Shown: positions 1 through 15,690 of the stretch, piece by piece | Numbering within the stretch: the stretch's first letter is position 1 | Layout of the letters: each line of letters begins with the position of its first letter | NCBI RefSeq assembly: GCF_003814555.1 | Contig: NZ_RKQN01000006.1 | Span: 1-64,000 of the forward strand | Direction of reading: 5' to 3' | DNA: 64,000 nt | Source of the DNA: Vulcaniibacterium tengchongense | GTDB taxonomy: Bacteria; Pseudomonadota; Gammaproteobacteria; Xanthomonadales; Xanthomonadaceae | Position numbers and translations under genes: made by a program | Notes under the pieces: model-generated | What the model saw: the letters and a program-made list of their open reading frames with translations, nothing else | Told to the model about the DNA's origin: nothing | Databases searched by the model: none

Positions 1-546
1 CTGGCCAACGCGGTGGAAGCCAAGTCCGCCGCCGCGGCGGATCGGAGCGAGGCGGCGAGCGCCGGCGAGGCGGCCGCGCTGAGCCTGGTGGCGGCGCAGG
101 GGGCGCTGGAGTTCGAGGCGCAGCACGACGAGGCCAGGCTGCAGTCGCGCGAGGGGCTGACGCTGGTGAGCGCCAACGCCGAAGTCGAACTGGCGGCCGG
201 CCAGGCGGTGCGCCTGGCCACCGCCGGCGGCGCGAGCATCACGATCGAAGGCGGCCACCTCGTCGTCAGCTGCCCGGGCCGGATCACGGTGCACGCGGGC
301 AGGAAGTCGTTCGTCGGGCCGACGCAGCTGTCGCGGGAGATGAACGCGTGGCCGGAGACCAGGTTCGACGATCCGTACATCCTGCGCCATCGCGCCACCA
401 ACGAGCCGTTACGCAACATGCGCGTCGAAGTCAGGCGGGCCGACGGCGCCATCATCAAGATGACGACGGATGGCGAGGGGCGCTTGCCCGTGCAGAAAGG
501 CCTCGGGCCGGAGCAAATCGCCATCAAGATCCTCGGCAAGGCTTAA
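1..546 (+). CDS. vgrG: VgrG spike protein, C-terminal part (5' end outside window)
   Basis: The frame is open from base 1, so this is the 3' end of a longer gene. Type VI secretion VgrG proteins form the trimeric needle tip and carry effectors. The visible part has the alternating short-strand pattern of the C-terminal DUF2345 beta-helix region. It is followed by a tail of about 60 residues, from RFDDPYILRHRATNEPL to the end, that looks like a small transthyretin/Ig-like beta domain. In other systems such VgrG tails recruit Tle lipases. A lipase effector gene starts 11 bases downstream, so this VgrG probably carries it. A similar tail recurs in the short gene at 4024-4296. The VgrG assignment is confident; the tail's role is inferred. 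Confidence 0.85.
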   Translation: MANAVEAKSAAAADRSEAASAGEAAALSLVAAQGALEFEAQHDEARLQSREGLTLVSANAEVELAAGQAVRLATAGGASITIEGGHLVVSCPGRITVHAGRKSFVGPTQLSREMNAWPETRFDDPYILRHRATNEPLRNMRVEVRRADGAIIKMTTDGEGRLPVQKGLGPEQIAIKILGKA

Positions 547-557
547 ACGGACATTCC

Positions 558-2210
558 ATGCCGCAGAACAACAATGAAGTCATCATCGACGCGCTGGATC
601 GGGACGAGAGCGGCAGGCCAGTCGCCAGGCCGCGCCTGACGCCGAATCAGGACCAGCGCGACAAGGTGTGCCTGATGCCGCCGGAAGCCGTGATCCCGGT
701 GGTGTTCCTGCCCGGCATCATGGGCAGCAATCTCAAAGCGAAAGACGGTGGCCGGGCCGTATGGCGCCCGCCGAACATGGATGGCGTCGGCGCCATCCTC
801 AGTGCGTTGGGGCAATTGTTCTCCTATTGGTTCAAGGGGCCAGCCACCAGGCAGCGCGAGTTGAACCCGCCAGGCGTCGAGGTGGATCCCCGCGGTTCGA
901 TCGAAACCGAGGGCACGCTCGAAAGGGAAGTGGCACGCGATCGCGGTTGGGGCACCGTCATGCGGTCTGCCTACAATCCGGTCATGTCGGTGATGGAAGA
1001 GCGCCTCAACAACCTGATGGTGTTGGGCGAAATGATGGAATGGTGGAACGACGAAGGCCGACGAGTCCCTTCGGACTACGGCGACCAGAAGAGCAATCCG
1101 CCGTTGACGGAAGACGATCTCAAGCACGCCGCGCAGTACCGTTACGAGGTATGGGGCGGCGGATACAACTGGTTGCAATCAAACGTCGACTCGGCCAACG
1201 ACATCAAGGACTATATAGAGAACAAGGTGCTGGCCAGCTACCCGGAAGACCAGCGCGGCAGGATGAAAGTCATCCTCGTCACGCACTCCATGGGGGGCTT
1301 CGTCGCTCGTGCACTGACCGAGATCGTCGGTTACGAGAAGGTCTTGGGTGTCGTTCACGGCGTCATGCCGGCCACGGGCGCACCGGCGATCTACCATCAC
1401 ATGCGGTGCGGCTACGAAGGCGTGGCCAGCGTGATCCTGGGGCGCGATGCCGCCGAGGTGGTGGCAGTCGCCGCATACTCGCCCGGGGCACTGCAGCTCA
1501 CGCCGGCATTCGATTACGCAGGCGGCAAGCCGTGGCTGAAGCTGGGCGATGGCGGTGCTTCAGAACCTGGTCGATCCTTGCCCACTTCGGGGAATCCGTA
1601 CGATGAGATCTATAAGAGCCGAGCTTGGTATGGGCTCATCCCGGAGCACAACGCGAAGCTCATCAATCCGGCCCAGCTGACAGGCCCTGCCCAAGAGAGC
1701 AAAGACATCTACGGTGGTATGAGTAGCTTGGAGGCTTTTGATTTGACCATCGATTCGGTCAGGTCATTTCATGCAGAGCTGGCTAAGAAGTATCCGAAGC
1801 CTGCCTATTGCCACTACGGCGCGGATTCCGGCCAGAAGACTTGGAGTGAGGTTCGGTGGCAAGGCACGCTCACGGCGCTCCCCGAGCAGTGGCAGGTGGA
1901 GGACGATGACGGCAATGGCCGCCTGCGTCTCACCAATGCCGGGCAGCATGTAGAACTTGAGTTTGGACCGCCCGAAGGCATGGGGGATGGCACAGTCTCT
2001 ACAGAGTCCGGTTCTGCACCAGGTGAGGCAGGGGTGCAGGCCAGCTTCCGACAAGGCAACCAAGCCGATGGCGCCTACGCCCGTATGAACGGAAAAGGCA
2101 AGGAACAAGGCTACGAACATCAGGACAGCTACAACGATCCGCGGGCGCAGTGGGCGACGCTGTACGGCATCGTGCGGATCGCCAGGCAAGCGGACTGGTC
2201 GTCATGCTGA
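558..2210 (+). CDS. T6SS lipase effector, Tle4-like alpha/beta hydrolase
   Basis: The product has 550 residues and no signal peptide. Near residue 50 it has the strand-turn VVFLPGIMGSNL typical of PGAP1/LCAT-like lipases. The nucleophile elbow is THSMGG with Ser244, a variant of GHSMG with Thr in place of the first Gly. The C-terminal EHQDSY segment holds a candidate catalytic His. It would act on membrane phospholipids of a rival cell after delivery on the VgrG spike encoded just upstream. I chose the ATG at 558 because the longer open frame overlaps vgrG out of phase. Its stop overlaps the start of a Tli4-type immunity gene, which places it in the Tle4 group. The exact lipase activity is inferred. 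Confidence 0.85.
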   Translation: MPQNNNEVIIDALDRDESGRPVARPRLTPNQDQRDKVCLMPPEAVIPVVFLPGIMGSNLKAKDGGRAVWRPPNMDGVGAILSALGQLFSYWFKGPATRQRELNPPGVEVDPRGSIETEGTLEREVARDRGWGTVMRSAYNPVMSVMEERLNNLMVLGEMMEWWNDEGRRVPSDYGDQKSNPPLTEDDLKHAAQYRYEVWGGGYNWLQSNVDSANDIKDYIENKVLASYPEDQRGRMKVILVTHSMGGFVARALTEIVGYEKVLGVVHGVMPATGAPAIYHHMRCGYEGVASVILGRDAAEVVAVAAYSPGALQLTPAFDYAGGKPWLKLGDGGASEPGRSLPTSGNPYDEIYKSRAWYGLIPEHNAKLINPAQLTGPAQESKDIYGGMSSLEAFDLTIDSVRSFHAELAKKYPKPAYCHYGADSGQKTWSEVRWQGTLTALPEQWQVEDDDGNGRLRLTNAGQHVELEFGPPEGMGDGTVSTESGSAPGEAGVQASFRQGNQADGAYARMNGKGKEQGYEHQDSYNDPRAQWATLYGIVRIARQADWSSC

Positions 2211-3220
2211 ACCGGCGTTTGATCGCACAGGGTTTGTTGGCCTTCGCCACCGTTCTGTGTGGAGGAACATCAAATGCAGATGGTGCAGAAGGAGTTCGCA
2301 TGAATAAAGAAGCCAAGACCCATTGTTTGGGTCGCTATCTCATCGATCTGCCCGCGAGTGCGAAAGTGACGACCCGCTACGTCTACTCGAGGGGCAAGAT
2401 CGCTACCCGAGTCGATGTATCGCCCGAAGGCTACGCCAAGCTTTTGTCGGAGCAGGAGGATGCGCTGAAGGCTGCCCGGCACGACGATGGGGGCAGCATG
2501 CTGGTGGATCGGGTGGAGTTCGCCCCGGGCAAGGTTTCGTTGATTTCCTGGAAAAGCCCGCATAGTCGGATTCTCTACCAGTACCGCTACTTTGCCTATT
2601 TGCCCGAAAGGCGCGTCCTCTTCTTGCTAGAGGGAGAAGGTAGCGCGAAAGCCGAGGCGCGGGCCCGGGCTGACAAAGCCGGCGGGGAACTCGTGACGGA
2701 GCTGCTCCGTTATCGAGAGGGAGATGAGGTTCCGAAGTCGCCCGGATATTGCTTCGATCACGGCTTGGTCGCGGACAATGCATTGAACCAAGAAGAATTC
2801 ACCGCCAACATCAAGCTGAAGGAGTATCCGAGCGTCACGCTCACCCTGATGTCCTACGTGACGGGCAAACCCGACCGCGAGCTGCTGCAGCGGGCATCGC
2901 GCATCCCGCCGGGGTTCGAACGCGCCGTCGCGCACATGAAGACGCTGCGCCGTGGCGACAGGAACATCGGGCCCGTGAAGGGGCAGGAACTCCTGGTGCG
3001 CGCGGACGCCGAGGGCAAGCGCAGCTACCACTTCCTGTGGGAGAGCCAAGGGCGGGCCAACTCGCTGGAATTCCCGTTCATGTCGTTGCAGCTGAGCACC
3101 ACCGACGAGACCGACGCCCGCGGCGAAGTGATCGATGCGCCGTTCGAATCGGACGAGGAAGCGCTCGAGCTTTGGGATTCGATCCTGACCACGTTGAGGC
3201 TGCGGCCGGGCGCGGTGTAG
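2204..3220 (+). CDS. Tli4-family immunity protein
   Basis: A 338-residue protein whose ATG lies inside the effector's stop region (ATGCTGA, 7-nt overlap), so the pair is probably translationally coupled. It starts with a hydrophobic export signal that ends near SNADG and then shows the Tli4 N-terminal signature THCLGRYLIDLP. Later comes the conserved SPGYCFDHG segment that opens the second domain. Tli4 proteins sit in the periplasm and block the cognate Tle4 lipase, protecting the producer and its siblings. No good lipobox precedes the early Cys, so a soluble periplasmic protein is more likely than a lipoprotein. An upstream in-frame ATG at 2150 would bury the signal and is less likely. Confidence 0.85.
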   Translation: MLNRRLIAQGLLAFATVLCGGTSNADGAEGVRMNKEAKTHCLGRYLIDLPASAKVTTRYVYSRGKIATRVDVSPEGYAKLLSEQEDALKAARHDDGGSMLVDRVEFAPGKVSLISWKSPHSRILYQYRYFAYLPERRVLFLLEGEGSAKAEARARADKAGGELVTELLRYREGDEVPKSPGYCFDHGLVADNALNQEEFTANIKLKEYPSVTLTLMSYVTGKPDRELLQRASRIPPGFERAVAHMKTLRRGDRNIGPVKGQELLVRADAEGKRSYHFLWESQGRANSLEFPFMSLQLSTTDETDARGEVIDAPFESDEEALELWDSILTTLRLRPGAV

Positions 3221-4700: not shown

Positions 4701-6641
4701 ATGTTTCGCCTGATGTGCGTTCTTGCTTTATTCGCTTGCCTGTGGGCGAACCCTTTTGGTGCTCGCGCCAAGAACTACCCAACGCAGGGCGAAGCCTATT
4801 CACGCTGTTGGGCCGCTTACTCGGCGGCCATGGGGCGCGCCGCGGCATACAACAGCAAACCGGGGATAACTTACGAGTGGCAATCCCGCAGCGCCTGTAA
4901 ATTGGGCGGGAATTCTACTTATCCCTTGTACGCGTGCACGCTTTACTACACCAATGCAGCGCTTGTTTCGTGCGAATTGGCGGTAGGCGGAACCGCTAGT
5001 GAAAATGGCGGCAGTTACGATTACAGCTTCCCAAGCACAAGGTCGACGTTCGATTACGCCAAGAGCCTGGGCAAGCCCGATTGCTGTGTTGGCAATCCAA
5101 TGAATGTGGCTACTGGCAACAAGTACCAAGAAGAGTTGGACTATGCCAACAACGAGCTCGAACTGCGGCGCTATTACAACAGCTTTCCGCCGCTGAGCCC
5201 CTCCGCGCTTGGCACACATTGGCGCCATACATTCGATCGTCGCTTGGAGCTCATGAACGACGGAACGAATTTCTTCGCTTACGCGCACCGCCAGGACGGA
5301 CACAGAATTGAGTTTCGCAAAGTTGCAGGCATATGGAAGCCAGACCCGGATGTGATTGATCGCCTCGTTTATGACGAGGGTTCGGGATACTGGGAGCTGC
5401 ATGAAGGCGAGACGCGGCAGCTTGAGCGCTACGACGCCAACGGACTGCTTGTCGCGATCGAGTTTCCGGATGGAGAAGCGATCGATCTGACTTACAGTGA
5501 CGACGAAACGCCTGCGCACATCGCTCCTGGCCCTGATTTGCTGTTGATCGCCTCGGATCGAAGCGGTCGAATCCTGACGTTCCACTACACCGCCACTGGC
5601 GCGCTACGGGATGTGGAGCAACCCGATGGAAAACTGGTCACCTACGAATACGACACGTTCGGCAACTTGGCTGAGGTGAGACACCCCGGTACCGCAATCC
5701 GACGGTATCACTACAACGAAAGCGGCTTAAACGGCGGCGTCGCCCAGCCAGGCCTGTTGACCGGCATCACAGATGAGAGCGGGATCAGGCTCTCAAGTTA
5801 TGGCTATAACAGCAAAGGTCAAGCCGTGCTGACGCAGCGTGGCAATGGCATTGAGAAGTATCAAGTGAAGCAGGCCGCTGATGGGCAAGTTGTAATTGCT
5901 TCTTCCTTGGGCGCGACGGATACCTACCAATTCTCAGTGATACACGGGGCTGCCCGCGTGAGCGCTCGGACGCAAACATGCGTTGGATGCCAAGCGCAAA
6001 GCTCCTTACGTACCTATGACGCTGCGGGCTATCCGGATGTGTTCACGGATTCAGGCGTTGTGGTCGACCACGACTACAGCTCTACGGGCTTGGAGACCCA
6101 GCGTGTCGAAAGCAAGGGAACAGCTAGCCAGCGAACGATCCAGACCGAGTGGAATGAATCTCTCCGGGTGCCCGTTGAGCGACGCACGTATCGGGCAGAT
6201 GGTGTTCTGATAGCCAAGTCTGCCTGGACCTACAACCCTCGCGGCCAACCGTTGACCAACACCCAGGTCGATCCGGTCGCTATGCAAACTCGGACAACTA
6301 CTACGACCTACTGCGAACAGGCGAACGTCGACGCAGGTACTTGCCCGCTGGTCGGATTGGTGACCTCCGTCGATAGCCCTCGTACCGACGTCAACGACGT
6401 CACGACGTACCAGTACTATGCGACCGACCATCCCGGTTGCGCTATCGCGCCCACTGCCTGTGCCTGGCGTAAGGGGGATCTGTGGAAGGTGGTGAATGCG
6501 CTGGGCCAAGTGACTGAGACGTTGCGCTATGACGGGTCCGGCCGCGTGCTCTCGGCGAAGGACGCCGATGGTGTCATCACCGATTTCGAATACCACCCGC
6601 GTGGCTGGCTGATTGCCAGGAAGACTCGCGGTTCGAATTGA
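4701..6641 (+). CDS. Rhs/YD-repeat protein, N-terminal half (split gene)
   Basis: A 646-residue protein with an apparent Sec signal (MFRLMCVLALFACLWAN...) and a Cys-containing N-terminal region. Near residues 128-210 lies the DUF6531-type entry to Rhs proteins (VGNPMNVATGNKYQEEL). After this come many YD-type repeats such as YEYDTFGNLAEV and FEYHPRGWLIA. Rhs proteins form a beta shell around a toxic C-terminal tip. Here the shell is incomplete: the frame stops at TGA 6639-6641 in the middle of a repeat and continues in the same frame in the next gene. There is no PAAR motif and no obvious VgrG-binding domain, so classical secretion followed by surface or periplasmic assembly is more likely than T6SS loading. 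Confidence 0.8.
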   Translation: MFRLMCVLALFACLWANPFGARAKNYPTQGEAYSRCWAAYSAAMGRAAAYNSKPGITYEWQSRSACKLGGNSTYPLYACTLYYTNAALVSCELAVGGTASENGGSYDYSFPSTRSTFDYAKSLGKPDCCVGNPMNVATGNKYQEELDYANNELELRRYYNSFPPLSPSALGTHWRHTFDRRLELMNDGTNFFAYAHRQDGHRIEFRKVAGIWKPDPDVIDRLVYDEGSGYWELHEGETRQLERYDANGLLVAIEFPDGEAIDLTYSDDETPAHIAPGPDLLLIASDRSGRILTFHYTATGALRDVEQPDGKLVTYEYDTFGNLAEVRHPGTAIRRYHYNESGLNGGVAQPGLLTGITDESGIRLSSYGYNSKGQAVLTQRGNGIEKYQVKQAADGQVVIASSLGATDTYQFSVIHGAARVSARTQTCVGCQAQSSLRTYDAAGYPDVFTDSGVVVDHDYSSTGLETQRVESKGTASQRTIQTEWNESLRVPVERRTYRADGVLIAKSAWTYNPRGQPLTNTQVDPVAMQTRTTTTTYCEQANVDAGTCPLVGLVTSVDSPRTDVNDVTTYQYYATDHPGCAIAPTACAWRKGDLWKVVNALGQVTETLRYDGSGRVLSAKDADGVITDFEYHPRGWLIARKTRGSN

Positions 6642-6659
6642 GCAGGGGAGCTCATTCCT

Positions 6660-9230
6660 ATGACCAAGGCACTTGGTAAAGCACGAACGATACCCAGATG
6701 GATGCGGCGGGAAGGTTCGAGCGCGGTCACCGCGCTGGCGATTGCGATCGCTGGTGTGGTTGTGCCGGCGACAGGGACGGCGCAGGCCAGCGAAGACCAG
6801 ATCACGCGTATCGACTACTACCCGACGGGTCTGGTCAGCAGCATTACCCTGCCGGACGGCAGCTTCACATCCTATGTTTACGATGCCGCCCACCGGCTCA
6901 CCGACATCGTCGATGCCGACGGCAATTCGATCCATTACACGCTGGACAATGCCGGCAACCGCACCCAGGAAGAGGTCAAGGGCAGCGATGGCAGCATCAA
7001 GCGCACCCGCTCCCGGGTGTACAACCAGTTGGGTCAGCTGCAGACGGCCAAGGATGCCGGCAACCACCCGACTGGCTTTACTTACGACCCCAACGGCAAT
7101 CTCGACACCACCACCGATGCGCTGGGCCGGGTGGCGGACAACGGCTACGACCCGCTGAACCGGCTGAGCAGGATGCTTCAGGACGTCGCCGGCATCGCCG
7201 CCGAGACCAAGTTCAAATACGACGCACAGGACAACCTGACCGAGGTCATCGATCCCAAGGGGCTGAGCACCAAATACCACTACAACGCCTTCGGTGACCT
7301 AACCCGCCTGGAAAGCCCGGACACGGGCGTCACGACCTACGGATACGACGCGGCCGGCAACCGCATCAGCGCGCTGGACGCCCGTCGCGAGCAGAGCGCC
7401 TACAGCTACGATGCGCTCAACCGGCTCACCGGCATCGCCTACAGCGACACCGCGCTGAACGTGAGCTACACCTACGACGCCGTGCAGGCGGTGTGCGACA
7501 CCCACGAATCGTTCGCCATCGGCCGGCTGACACGGATGGACGACGGCAGCGGCTCCACCCAGTACTGCCACGACCGCTTCGGCAACCTGACCCGCAAAGT
7601 GCAGGTGACCAACGGCCAATCGTTCACCCTGCGCTACGCCTACACGAAGGCCGGGCAGCTGGCCGCCATCCAGTACCCGGACGGGACCAGCGTGGACTAC
7701 GTGCGCGACGACCTGGGCCGCACTACCGAAGTCGGCGTGACCCCCAACGGTGGCACTCGCCAGGTGCTGCTGAGCAATGCCACCTACCACCCGTTTGGCC
7801 CCGTCGCCGGCTGGACCTTCGGCAACGGCCGCACCCTGAGCCGCACACTGGACCTGGACTACCGGCCCAAGACCATCCTGAGCACGGGAACCGGCGCTAA
7901 CGGACTGAACTTGGGCTTCGGTTGGGATGCCGTCGGCAACCTGGCGAGCCTGCACACCAGCGGCCTGGAACAGCCGCCGCGGATCACGTTCGGCTATGAC
8001 GCGTTGAATCGGCTGACGGTGTTCCAGGACGGCCCGACCGGCGCCGCCATTGAGCAGTACACCTACGACGCCACGGGCAACCGCACCAGCTTTACCAACG
8101 CCGGCGGTACACAGTTGTACGACTACCCAGGCGACAGCCATCGATTGGGTGCCGTGAACGGCGTGGCGCGCAGTTACGATGCGATGGGCAACACCACGTC
8201 GATCGGCGGTATCGAACGCGAGTTCGCCTACAACGCGGCCGGCCGGATGAGTCGGGTCGAGCGCAACAATGCTTTGGTAATGGAATACTCGTACAACGGC
8301 CAGGACGAACAGGTGTGCCGAAGCCTGGGCGAGGTGCGCACCCACGCGCTGTACGATCAGGCAGGACACTGGCTCGGTGACTACAGCAATGCGCAATCAC
8401 CGCTGCAGCAGGTGATTTGGCTGGATGACCTGCCGATCGGGGTGGTCGCGAACGGCAGCCTTCGCTATATCGAAGCGGACCACTTGGGCACGCCGCGGTC
8501 GGTCATCGACCCGCAGCGGGATGTGGCGGTTTGGACGTGGGATTTTGCGAGTGAGGCCTTCGGCAATAGTCTGCCGAATCAGGATCCGGATGCAGATGCG
8601 ATCCAGTTCGTGTTCGACATGCGATTTCCAGGCCAACATTACGATGCGGCGAGTGGGCTCAACTACAACCACTTCCGGGATTACGAGCCGGCGACCGGTA
8701 GGTATCCACAGAGCGATCCGATCGGGCTCAAGGGCGGTATTACCACCTACTCGTACGCAGGACTTTCTCCGCTGCGGCAAATTGATCCCAAGGGTCTACT
8801 TAGCTACGGCCCCTCCTGCAGTGCGGCGCAGCGAGCTCGAATCAATTCGGAAATTGTGCAGTTGGCAAACGAGCTGAAGGAAAAGGCCACTTCAAAGGAT
8901 TGCAATAACGGTTATTGTGATTGGGGGCTGGTGCGCGATGTTATGTCGTTCATAGCGTCCGAAGCCGTTTTCTCTTGCAATCTTGGCGGGCCTTGCGGCG
9001 CTATTTGGGGGTTGGATCGGAACGTATTCCTTTACGGCCCGTACGTTGATGCACCCTCGGCAGCTGAAATCAACAGTCCTGGCCAGTGTGGCTGCTTCCG
9101 CAGCACGCTATTCCATGAGGTGGCGCACAAGGTGCGATACGAAATGGGTGAGAACTCCATTCGCCGCGAGACTCTGAAATGCGTTCCGTGTGCGACCAAT
9201 CTCGCGGAAGGAGGCCATTCACCGCTATGA
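6660..9230 (+). CDS. Rhs core with cysteine-rich HEVAH metallopeptidase-like toxin tip
   Basis: An 856-residue protein. Residues 1-43 look like a signal peptide ending AQA, after which YD repeats begin at once. The Rhs core ends with SDPIGL (residues 685-690) and DPKGL (709-713), the usual boundary before a variable toxin. The tip of about 145 residues has nine Cys and an HEVAH zinc-peptidase motif (His819, Glu820, His823), with Glu residues downstream as possible third ligands. I cannot place the tip in a named family; it resembles the metallopeptidase tips known in polymorphic toxins. It is in the same frame as the preceding half-Rhs gene. It overlaps the likely immunity gene by ATGA. The core is certain; the toxic activity is inferred. 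Confidence 0.8.
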   Translation: MTKALGKARTIPRWMRREGSSAVTALAIAIAGVVVPATGTAQASEDQITRIDYYPTGLVSSITLPDGSFTSYVYDAAHRLTDIVDADGNSIHYTLDNAGNRTQEEVKGSDGSIKRTRSRVYNQLGQLQTAKDAGNHPTGFTYDPNGNLDTTTDALGRVADNGYDPLNRLSRMLQDVAGIAAETKFKYDAQDNLTEVIDPKGLSTKYHYNAFGDLTRLESPDTGVTTYGYDAAGNRISALDARREQSAYSYDALNRLTGIAYSDTALNVSYTYDAVQAVCDTHESFAIGRLTRMDDGSGSTQYCHDRFGNLTRKVQVTNGQSFTLRYAYTKAGQLAAIQYPDGTSVDYVRDDLGRTTEVGVTPNGGTRQVLLSNATYHPFGPVAGWTFGNGRTLSRTLDLDYRPKTILSTGTGANGLNLGFGWDAVGNLASLHTSGLEQPPRITFGYDALNRLTVFQDGPTGAAIEQYTYDATGNRTSFTNAGGTQLYDYPGDSHRLGAVNGVARSYDAMGNTTSIGGIEREFAYNAAGRMSRVERNNALVMEYSYNGQDEQVCRSLGEVRTHALYDQAGHWLGDYSNAQSPLQQVIWLDDLPIGVVANGSLRYIEADHLGTPRSVIDPQRDVAVWTWDFASEAFGNSLPNQDPDADAIQFVFDMRFPGQHYDAASGLNYNHFRDYEPATGRYPQSDPIGLKGGITTYSYAGLSPLRQIDPKGLLSYGPSCSAAQRARINSEIVQLANELKEKATSKDCNNGYCDWGLVRDVMSFIASEAVFSCNLGGPCGAIWGLDRNVFLYGPYVDAPSAAEINSPGQCGCFRSTLFHEVAHKVRYEMGENSIRRETLKCVPCATNLAEGGHSPL

Positions 9231-9658
9231 AATTGCGCAGCTTTACTTCTAGTTCCGTCGATTTCTTTAGGGGCGAGATCAAGCGATTCGTTCTGCCAAT
9301 CGCGTTGATATTGCTTGCTGCATCTTGCGGTATGACGGACCAAGGGAAAGAAGCATCTGCTGTAATCCCCCCTCCCCCTGACCTAAGAGAGTTGAGGGGT
9401 GTTCAAGGCTCCTGCGTGTCAACGCCACAATCTGCTGCCGTGACCGCGGCAGAGAAATGCTGGATTCGTGTCCTGTCGGAGAGATGCGCCTTGGGGGATG
9501 ACTGCCTGACAGCATGTATTGCCTCTGGCAAAGGAGCACTCATCGGCGGGGGCTGCTGGCATGTGTGCTCGCAACCCCCCAATCGCCTAACGGATTGGAA
9601 AGAGCCGCAGGCTGCACATGAGTGCAAAAATCTTGGAAGTGTTCACGGCTATCGGTAA
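9227..9658 (+). CDS. Cysteine-rich lipoprotein, probable immunity protein for the Rhs tip
   Basis: A 143-residue protein whose ATG overlaps the toxin stop (ATGA). It has a lipoprotein signal, LILLAASC, with the lipobox Cys near residue 35. The mature part has about eight more Cys, in patterns such as RCALGDDC and GGGCWHVC. That suggests disulfides and a periplasmic location. Its position directly after a variable Rhs tip, its membrane anchor and the matching cysteine richness fit a cognate inhibitor of the HEVAH domain. I recognise no family, and binding to the toxin is inferred only from arrangement. The start at 9227 is preferred over an upstream GTG because it gives a clean signal peptide and the overlap. 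Confidence 0.65.
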   Translation: MKLRSFTSSSVDFFRGEIKRFVLPIALILLAASCGMTDQGKEASAVIPPPPDLRELRGVQGSCVSTPQSAAVTAAEKCWIRVLSERCALGDDCLTACIASGKGALIGGGCWHVCSQPPNRLTDWKEPQAAHECKNLGSVHGYR

Positions 9659-9681: not shown

Positions 9682-9713
9682 GAAGCCCCGCCAAGTGCGG
9701 GGCTTCTTCTTTA
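9682..9713 (+). terminator. Rho-independent terminator after the Rhs/immunity unit
   Basis: A perfect 10-bp stem, GAAGCCCCGC with GCGGGGCTTC, spans 9682-9706 around the loop CAAGT. It is followed by TTCTTTA. It lies 24 bases after the stop of the immunity gene and closes the Rhs transcription unit. Confidence 0.85.
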
Positions 9714-9865: not shown

Positions 9866-9968
9866 TCACGTTACCTGCCGCAGTCGAGCATCGTACCCTC
9901 GCCCGATCCGGAACACGTTTGATGGCGCTGGGCCTTGGCTCTTCTCACAGGTAACTTGAACGGTGCCC

Positions 9969-10076
9969 CGTCCAGTTGCTGGCGCGGGTGTCCAGATCAG
10001 TTGGCGCCACTGTCCAACTTGCTTGGCAGTTCTGTCCAGTTCGTTTGGCGGCTGCGTCCAACCGTTTGGCTATATG
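9969..10076. repeat. Five imperfect 22-bp tandem repeats, GTCCA-N(5-8)-TGGC pattern
   Basis: Units start at 9969, 9989, 10011, 10033 and 10055 (spacing 20, 22, 22, 22). Each begins with T/C-GTCCA and has TTGGC (CTGGC in the first) about 6-9 bases on. The units are TGTCCAGATCAGTTGGCG, TGTCCAACTTGCTTGGCA, TGTCCAGTTCGTTTGGCG and close variants. The array runs into the start of the DUF3304 gene at 10074. It could be a binding array for a regulator. It could also be the multiple terminal repeats of an IS21-type element whose transposase genes are gone. No transposase gene was seen in the window. Confidence 0.75.
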
Positions 10077-10643
10077 TACCTGCTCGCAGCCGTAGCCCTG
10101 ACCGTTCTGACGGCCGCCTGCCAAGCCAGGCCCGCGGCCGACACGGAGATCCCGGCGAGCGCAAGCGCGCCGGAAGGTCCGTTCGACCTGGTCATCAATG
10201 GCTACAACTACACCGACCATTACATCGACAGCTTCTATGTCGATGGCAGCTGGGGCGGAAATCTTTTTGTCAGCACCCCAACCGCTGGAGGAGGTAAGAG
10301 CACCTGCTGCGTGCGCTGGTACTCGTGGATGCAGGTGCCGAAGACCTTCCGCGTTCGCTGGACGGCCGATGCGTGCCTGTATGAGCAAGAGGTGGAAGGA
10401 CAGGTGTTTACGCAGGTCAAGCACCTGTGGAAAGAGCAGGACGTGACGCTCGCTACGCCGCCGCCTGCCACGCCCGTTGCGTTTGAAGTGCACTTCTACC
10501 GGGACGGCCGCGTCGAGGTGGCCATTGCCGACGACATCGCCCGCCCGCCCCGCCTGAAACTGGAAGAGGAAGACGGCCGCCGCAAGGGAGCGCCGGAACG
10601 GGCGCGGTGCACTCCCGAGCAGATGCGTACCTATTCCGATTGA
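10074..10643 (+). CDS. DUF3304 lipoprotein, probable T6SS immunity-type protein
   Basis: A 189-residue protein starting MYLLAAVALTVLTAAC, a compact lipoprotein signal with lipobox TAAC. The mature part has the DUF3304 pattern: GYNYTDHYIDSFYVDGSWGG, a small-residue-rich turn, then STCCVRWYSW. DUF3304 genes commonly sit beside DUF2235 (Tle1) phospholipase effectors and are taken to be their immunity proteins. Here the neighbour is a decayed Tle1 gene, so this may be an orphan immunity gene still giving protection. I chose the ATG at 10074. A longer in-frame start at 9963 would translate the tandem repeats and place the signal inside the protein. Confidence 0.7.
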   Translation: MYLLAAVALTVLTAACQARPAADTEIPASASAPEGPFDLVINGYNYTDHYIDSFYVDGSWGGNLFVSTPTAGGGKSTCCVRWYSWMQVPKTFRVRWTADACLYEQEVEGQVFTQVKHLWKEQDVTLATPPPATPVAFEVHFYRDGRVEVAIADDIARPPRLKLEEEDGRRKGAPERARCTPEQMRTYSD

Positions 10644-10665
10644 TCAGCCGACAAGGAGCCGTCGC

Positions 10666-11388
10666 ATGGCCGCCAATCCCGGGAGCGCCGGCCACAAGAG
10701 CCCCGCGTTCCCGCCGAACGCGCACTGAAGCGCAGCGCCGATCCCGAGGCCGGAGCGGGCGCCGTAAGCCCCGCGCCGCCGCCCGAAGCCACGGCCAAGG
10801 GCCAGTATTCGGACGTGCATTGCGTGGGCCCGGTATGCCGGATTCCGTTGTGGATCAGCATTTTCTTCGACGGCACCGGCAACAACCGCGAAGCCGACGA
10901 GCCGATGCACCGCGATAGCAACGTGGCCCGGCCGTACCGGGCGCGCGAGGACGACAATCCGGCGGAAGGAATCTACCGCATCTACCTGCCGGGCATCGGC
11001 ACCGACTTCCGCGAGATAGGCGATCCGGGCAATACCGCCGAAGGCATGGCCTTCGCCAAATACGGCGAGGCCCGGTTGCAATGGGCGATGCAACAACTGG
11101 ACCTGAGGCTGGCGCGTACCCGGCCGGCCGCATCCTGGAGGTGAACGTTGCGCTGTTCGGGTTTTCGCGTGGTGCCGCCTTGGCGCGCGCCCTGGGCGGC
11201 GGACCTGCTTATCCCGCGACTGGCCGAGCGCCGCGTGCACCTGGTGGCCGCGCACGAGCAGCGCAATTCGTTCCCGCTCGAATCGGTGCGCAGCGGCCAG
11301 CGCTACCCGGCCAATTGCGTGGAGATCATGTATCCGGGGATGCATTCGGACAGCGGGCACGCCCATGGCGAGACGGGAACCGGAACGA
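10666..11388 (+). pseudogene. Decayed Tle1-type (DUF2235) lipase effector
   Basis: The start reads MAANPGSAGHKSPAFPP and then stops. One base later in frame the sequence continues ALKRSADPEAGAG and reaches the DUF2235 entry IPLWISIFFDGTGNN. Near 11140 the frame shifts to give the nucleophile elbow VALFGFSRGAALARA (GFSRG). It then shifts again to HLVAAHEQRNSFPLES and EIMYPGMHSDSGH, both DUF2235 landmarks. The sequence ends abruptly before the gapA terminator, so the C-terminal half is missing. At least three shifts and a truncation make this a dead gene. It originally encoded a membrane-phospholipid-degrading T6SS effector. Confidence 0.8.
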
Positions 11389-11414
11389 CGAAGGCCGGCG
11401 CGAACCGGCCTTCG
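11389..11414 (-). terminator. Hairpin terminator of gapA
   Basis: An inverted repeat CGAAGGCCGG / CCGGCCTTCG with loop CGCGAA lies 24 bases beyond the gapA stop on the minus strand. It has no long T run, as is common in GC-rich genomes. It may also stop transcripts arriving from the decayed Tle1 gene. Confidence 0.6.
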
Positions 11415-11437
11415 TCCCTGCGGCGCGGCGCCGCGGC

Positions 11438-15690
<4,253 letters not shown>

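Follow-up and report, generated by a model that had tools for sequence, protein, structure and literature searches.

In the window, that is, the whole stretch of 64,000 nucleotides analyzed from Vulcaniibacterium tengchongense, we identified a locus that is probably a polymorphic-toxin module, in which an exported Rhs protein would carry an envelope-acting zinc-protease tip blocked by the product of an overlapping lipoprotein gene. Judged by sequence, the tip and the lipoprotein belong to families left unnamed by four libraries (no meaningful family match in Pfam, NCBIfam, PADLOC or PHROGs), although their kind is already known. The locus adds an apparently undescribed, predicted envelope-acting metallopeptidase tip, as well as an undescribed family of putative immunity lipoproteins that is paired with two dissimilar carriers. 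Its features are as follows.

4701..6641, + strand: N-terminal half of the split Rhs, 646 aa (Pfam DUF6531, 6e-13; RHS_repeat, 6e-18; BLASTP)
6660..6788, + strand: 43-aa locus-unique segment at the Rhs split (BLASTP to intact Rhs, hydropathy)
6789..8795, + strand: C-terminal half of the Rhs shell, with RHS repeats and Rhs-associated core (RHS_repeat, 1.3e-47; Rhs_assc_core, 7e-18)
8796..9230, + strand: variable tip, aa 713-856, predicted Cys-rich zincin with M35-like fold (homologues, AlphaFold model, VIA-align)
9114..9128, + strand: HEVAH, predicted zinc-binding and catalytic motif, H819 E820 H823 (HExxH invariant in alignments of relatives)
9150..9152, + strand: Glu831, predicted third zinc ligand, His in G015 (alignment, partly by eye)
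9227..9658, + strand: 143-aa Cys-rich lipoprotein, predicted immunity protein (start overlaps the Rhs stop, ATGA)
9326..9328, + strand: lipobox Cys34, with Gly at +2 (sequence; +2 rule)
9682..9706, + strand: inverted repeat followed by a T-rich stretch, putative terminator just 3' of the lipoprotein gene (read in the sequence)

The split Rhs carrier and its surroundings

The first-pass annotation had overlooked that the Rhs gene is split, as well as the neighboring VgrG, Tle4 and Tli4 genes. Intact relatives have one Rhs ORF, whereas the window has two (4701-6641 and 6660-9230). The first encodes a Sec-type signal peptide followed by DUF6531 and RHS repeats (Pfam), and by BLASTP it aligns to the intact 1507-aa Rhs of Thermomonas flagellata (L085) up to residue 697. 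For the second, of 856 aa on the + strand, alignment to the same protein begins at residue 44 of the ORF product, opposite position 701 of the intact Rhs, indicating that the gene was cut almost without loss. The 43-aa segment preceding this point starts anew 3' of the stop codon of the first half, the region of interruption being 6642-6788, and no further copy of it was found in the genome of the window. Its hydropathy is that of a signal peptide, with a basic n-region, a hydrophobic core (LAIAIAGVVV) and a TAQA end. The C half of the shell shares 52% identity with the T. flagellata Rhs, and the tips of the two proteins diverge (BLASTP); in the window, the Rhs-associated core (TIGR03696) ends at residue 713. 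RHS repeats and an Rhs-associated core followed by a variable tip correspond to the architecture of Rhs polymorphic toxins.

Because of the split, the window copy may be inactive. The locus could then be a decayed remnant, its shell broken by an insertion and its tip and lipoprotein maintained as an orphan module solely for immunity. The presence of two ORFs where relatives have one points in this direction, as does the truncation of a Tle1-like gene nearby, and orphan tips are common: G130 has two beside its main Rhs, and the tip of G230 follows an IS30-like transposase. However, the split costs merely about 3 residues, the second half has gained a new start together with the signal-peptide-like segment, and neither reading frame is interrupted over its 646 or 856 codons. 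We therefore consider decay rather unlikely. Two-chain Rhs shells are known from the B and C subunits of Tc toxins. In the toxin module that we favor, the two exported halves would probably form one shell carrying the C-terminal toxin.

Positions 13-3220 of the window, which begin at the contig start with a fragment of VgrG (DUF2345) and continue with a Tle4-like lipase ORF and the immunity gene Tli4 (PF18426, 8e-42), make up a predicted auxiliary T6SS effector island adjoining the Rhs. Since a T6SS sheath gene is also present in the genome, the Rhs could be a T6SS cargo loaded on the VgrG encoded at the window start. Against this, the N half harbors DUF6531 and RHS repeats with no PAAR match in Pfam, and signal-peptide-like starts are found on both Rhs halves and on the complete relatives. 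These starts favor predicted Sec export, with a further step for crossing the outer membrane, over T6SS loading, which we regard as improbable.

Two further observations concern the surroundings. Downstream of the locus, at 9963-11480, a DUF3304 lipoprotein gene precedes the truncated Tle1-like phospholipase ORF (10815-11144), whose frame appears broken. The genome also encodes a second, longer Rhs (G000:C3 ~258341-261500, L095), whose 1663-aa open frame includes a tip resembling alpha/beta hydrolases (GHSQGA).

The variable tip, a predicted zincin

The tip (aa 713-856) indeed contains the HEVAH motif and the nine cysteines noticed in the first-pass annotation (positions 720, 748, 753, 773, 779, 810, 812, 841 and 844). 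The preceding 712 residues of the ORF contain only 3, and at such a rate the probability of at least 9 in the tip is about 1e-8 (binomial). As nine is an odd number, at least one cysteine must lie outside any intramolecular disulfide. The GC content of the tip (0.549) and of the lipoprotein gene (0.544) is lower than that of the adjoining Rhs core (0.633) and of the window (0.716), as expected for an exchangeable module. Sequence searches of the PDB with the tip and the lipoprotein returned Rhs-core or chance matches at most, searches of plasmids, phages and IMG/VR did not recover the tip, and the toxin metallopeptidase models of Pfam did not match four tips at E values up to 1.

Relatives of the tip are rare. 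A first search (E 0.01) gave matches in 6 of the 297 genomes of the window's family, convincing only in the window, G130 (Thermomonas flagellata, locus L012; 42% identity), G230 (47%) and G099 (Pseudomarimonas arenosa, locus L013; 25%). Profile searches brought few further relatives, among them the T. flagellata main tip and the G015 tip, and the tip of G206, missed by the profile, was found via its lipoprotein and recognized by its Rhs context, HExxH and CxxC. We thus compared seven tips: those of the window, G230, P. arenosa, G015 and G206 and the orphan and main tips of G130. A likely further tip from another gammaproteobacterial family (L014), which is partly masked, was left out of this count, and the weak profile matches L005-L007, L011 and L015-L020 were dropped as chance upon inspection. 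In T. flagellata, the main Rhs and two orphan Rhs tips lie consecutively (L085 4390-12928), and all three tips harbor HExxH (HEVLH, HEQSH and HEATH).

HExxH and a C-terminal CxxC are kept in all seven tips. No relative lacking HExxH, which would have spoken against the zinc-peptidase assignment, was found, and this conservation argues that the motif is not due to chance. According to the alignments and to tails read by eye, the residue aligned with Glu831 is a glutamate in six of the seven tips and a histidine in G015, which matches a third zinc ligand.

We then turned to structure prediction. The AlphaFold model of the tip, built on four sequences, reached a pLDDT of 72.7 and a pTM of 0.73. 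HExxH was neither split nor buried in it, either of which would have counted against the assignment; instead, it lies on one confident helix (residues 101-113 of the tip, block pLDDT 83-86), followed by a helix (115-129) with the conserved Glu831. The model thus combines zincin features, namely HExxH on a helix and a downstream third-ligand residue, that are both conserved in the homologues. By VIA-align, the top three rows were crystal forms of AsaP1 (Z 9.4-9.5), the best with Z 9.5 and an rmsd of 3.3 over 122 aligned residues, and next came GfMEP (7.8), deuterolysin (7.1) and Candida Pra1 (6.8), all of which we take to be M35-type proteases. Foldseek with the same model found nothing below an E value of 0.001; its best match was again AsaP1, with an E value of merely 0.087, so that an M35-like fold is likely for the modeled tip rather than proven.

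M35 proteases carry the motif GTxDxxYG, in which Asp is the third ligand. This motif is absent from the tip, where GENSIRRE follows HEVAH, and we therefore do not place the tip in M35. The first-pass statement that the tip fits no nameable family holds for sequence families but not for the fold, which looks M35-like. Its reading of a metallopeptidase toxin neutralized at the membrane is largely supported: HExxH is kept, the best structural neighbors of the model are secreted zinc proteases, and every tip is followed by a gene for an apparently exported protein, which in four genomes is co-inherited with the tip.

The analysis shows the features of the sequence, their conservation, the predicted fold, the pairing of the genes and their co-inheritance; that the tip binds zinc, cleaves proteins and is toxic, that the lipoprotein confers immunity, and which substrate and export route are used, we infer. 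The toxin, released or displayed by the exported Rhs, would be a small zinc endopeptidase with disulfide bonds and a fold resembling that of M35 proteases. Zinc would be bound by His819, His823 and Glu831, with Glu820 acting as the general base. In competing Gram-negative bacteria, the toxin would attack envelope proteins, either periplasmic ones or ones at the cell surface.

The lipoprotein and its copies in other loci

As annotated at first pass, the ATG of the next gene overlaps the TGA of the Rhs by 4 bases (ATGA), and its product is a predicted lipoprotein with the lipobox LAASC and 9 cysteines in all, including Cys34. This cysteine is invariant in the lipoprotein alignment and is preceded by a predicted lipoprotein signal peptide. 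The glycine at +2 lets us expect sorting to the outer membrane, according to the +2 rule as cited in PMC6899460. A structure model of the lipoprotein was poor (pLDDT 51), and the protein was not found in plasmids or IMG/VR.

A gene abuts or overlaps the tip stop in all seven tips. The overlap is -4 in the window, at both G130 tips and in G230 and -8 in G206, where the start is TTG, while P. arenosa and G015 have -4 or close alternative starts. In each case the product has a hydrophobic N terminus, mostly with a lipobox, and is apparently exported, which argues that the toxin acts outside the cytoplasm. Next to the tips of the window, the G130 orphan, G230 and G206, it belongs to one family of Cys-rich lipoproteins, co-inherited with the tip and characterized by 9 conserved cysteines and the signature CxxxC...GGGCxHxC; the other three tips are followed by different proteins. 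In our model, the lipoprotein would be anchored in the envelope, rich in disulfides (8 non-lipidated cysteines and the GGGCxHxC signature), and would neutralize the protease by binding it in its compartment of action, guarding the producer and its kin.

At E 0.01, the lipoprotein family was detected in 45 of 297 genomes and 17 of 54 genera of the window's family, the weakest matches being possibly due to chance. We examined 35 copies in 33 regions together with their flanks. Five were paired with an HExxH ORF, and most lie beside no toxin. In G098 and G032, a family member overlaps by 4 bases the gene of a TrbL/VirB6 protein of 551-570 aa (Pfam 5.8e-24 and 1.1e-17). These carriers end in an HExxH domain (HEFRH, then ENDAEEFA or EDDAKAYA) that is devoid of a Cys cluster and dissimilar in sequence to the Rhs tips, and their listed neighbors do not have the appearance of a T4SS operon. 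Occurrence after two dissimilar HExxH carriers is what one would expect if the family provides antidotes to HExxH toxins, and it suggests that proteases of this class are its target. At L066 4259-6258 and L071 4186-6131 (reverse strand), a TrbL/VirB6 protein stands alone, ends in an HExxH domain and is overlapped by a Cys-rich lipoprotein gene, a possible VirB6-borne polymorphic toxin.

The many unpaired copies could also mean that the lipoprotein has another role, as a general envelope protein (e.g., a protease inhibitor or an entry-exclusion-like protein) with fortuitous toxin neighbors. One cassette member gave a TrbK-alt match; its 19 bits stay below the cut-off of 33, and the match is absent for the VirB6-linked members. 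The entry-exclusion reading was dropped because of this sub-threshold score. Moreover, overlaps of 4 or 8 bases are found in six pairings with HExxH carriers, and immunity genes without a toxin partner are a usual feature of polymorphic-toxin systems (PMC5361080, PMC12247911). A general envelope function thus seems distinctly unlikely to us compared with immunity.

Twelve of the unpaired copies are bordered on one side or both by a strict attC right end (on both in 7 of them), whereas no such end occurs in the 64-kb window; by left ends or read-through, L056, L070 and L075 resemble further cassettes. An IntI above the curated cut-off is encoded about 2-24 kb away on the same contig in G013, G273, G250, G243, G279 and G248. 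As Rfam at gathering scores gave no attC-type match in five of the regions that hold lipoprotein cassettes, we assessed attC by its consensus ends. By path and by identity (about 55%), the nearest relative of the window lipoprotein is the G013 cassette copy and not the other Rhs-linked copies. In the lipoprotein tree, paired copies do not form one group: supported branches force at least 3 changes, and shuffled labels do equally well in 116 of 500 trials, so that the tree shows no clustering by pairing; nor does it indicate a direction of transfer. Two side observations concern integrons: three distinct members of the lipoprotein family lie within about 7.5 kb of one integron-like cassette array in G240 (L054), and the window's own genome has a decayed, frameshifted integron integrase (G000:C3:285411-286351, L098).

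We tentatively put forward, as a possibility that is more doubtful than the toxin module itself, that chromosomal integrons of this family serve as a store of acquired defense, in which lipoprotein cassettes would protect against Rhs- or VirB6-borne HExxH envelope toxins and immunity genes would pass between loci. If the cassette copies are protective, interbacterial immunity would be stored in integrons, a link that we did not find in the open-access literature searched.

Comparison with known systems

Other Rhs proteins likewise end in small HExxH tips, such as Tox-MPTase1-5 and other metallopeptidase tips (Zhang 2012, PMC3482391), whereas the window tip has no Pfam match. In the same collection, Imm65, which pairs with Tox-JAB-1, is the sole lipoprotein immunity family (PMC3482391). 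A putative HExxH metallopeptidase, XAC0096, is among the X-T4SS effectors of Xanthomonas (PMC6759196). Immunity relatives without a toxin are likewise found in the recombinase-linked rAID arrays of Bacteroidales (PMC12247911) and in the T6SS immunity arrays of V. cholerae (PMC5361080). The lipoprotein arrays described here, with putative protection, differ in being integrons with attC in genomes of the window's family.

The M35 proteases AsaP1, GfMEP and deuterolysin resemble the window tip model over nearly its full length, are secreted and have HExxH on the active-site helix. The tip shares about 13% identity with them and, unlike them, would use Glu instead of Asp as the third ligand, lacks GTxDxxYG, and is predicted to be delivered by an Rhs and encoded next to its antidote.

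The closest experimentally known parallel is the VgrG2b-PA0261 (Tpe-Tpi) pair. In Pseudomonas aeruginosa, periplasmic toxicity of VgrG2b-Cter needs HExxH, Glu being the third ligand, and PA0261 is an exported antidote whose protection needs export and disulfide formation (PMC6899460). The carriers differ, since VgrG2b is a VgrG of the T6SS whose toxin is not described as Cys-rich, whereas the window has an exported Rhs with a Cys-rich tip. Among the structural matches listed, the tip model is nearer to M35 proteases, and no sequence match with VgrG2b-Cter was seen in PDB searches; 6H56 (VgrG2b-Cter) is absent among the best 50 VIA-align rows listed, which does not exclude a likeness. Nevertheless, both pairs combine, by prediction for the window, an HExxH and Glu toxin with an adjacent gene for an exported, Cys-containing immunity protein. 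Enterobacterial PA0261 homologues are predicted lipoproteins with Gly at +2 (PMC6899460), a residue that the window lipoprotein shares.
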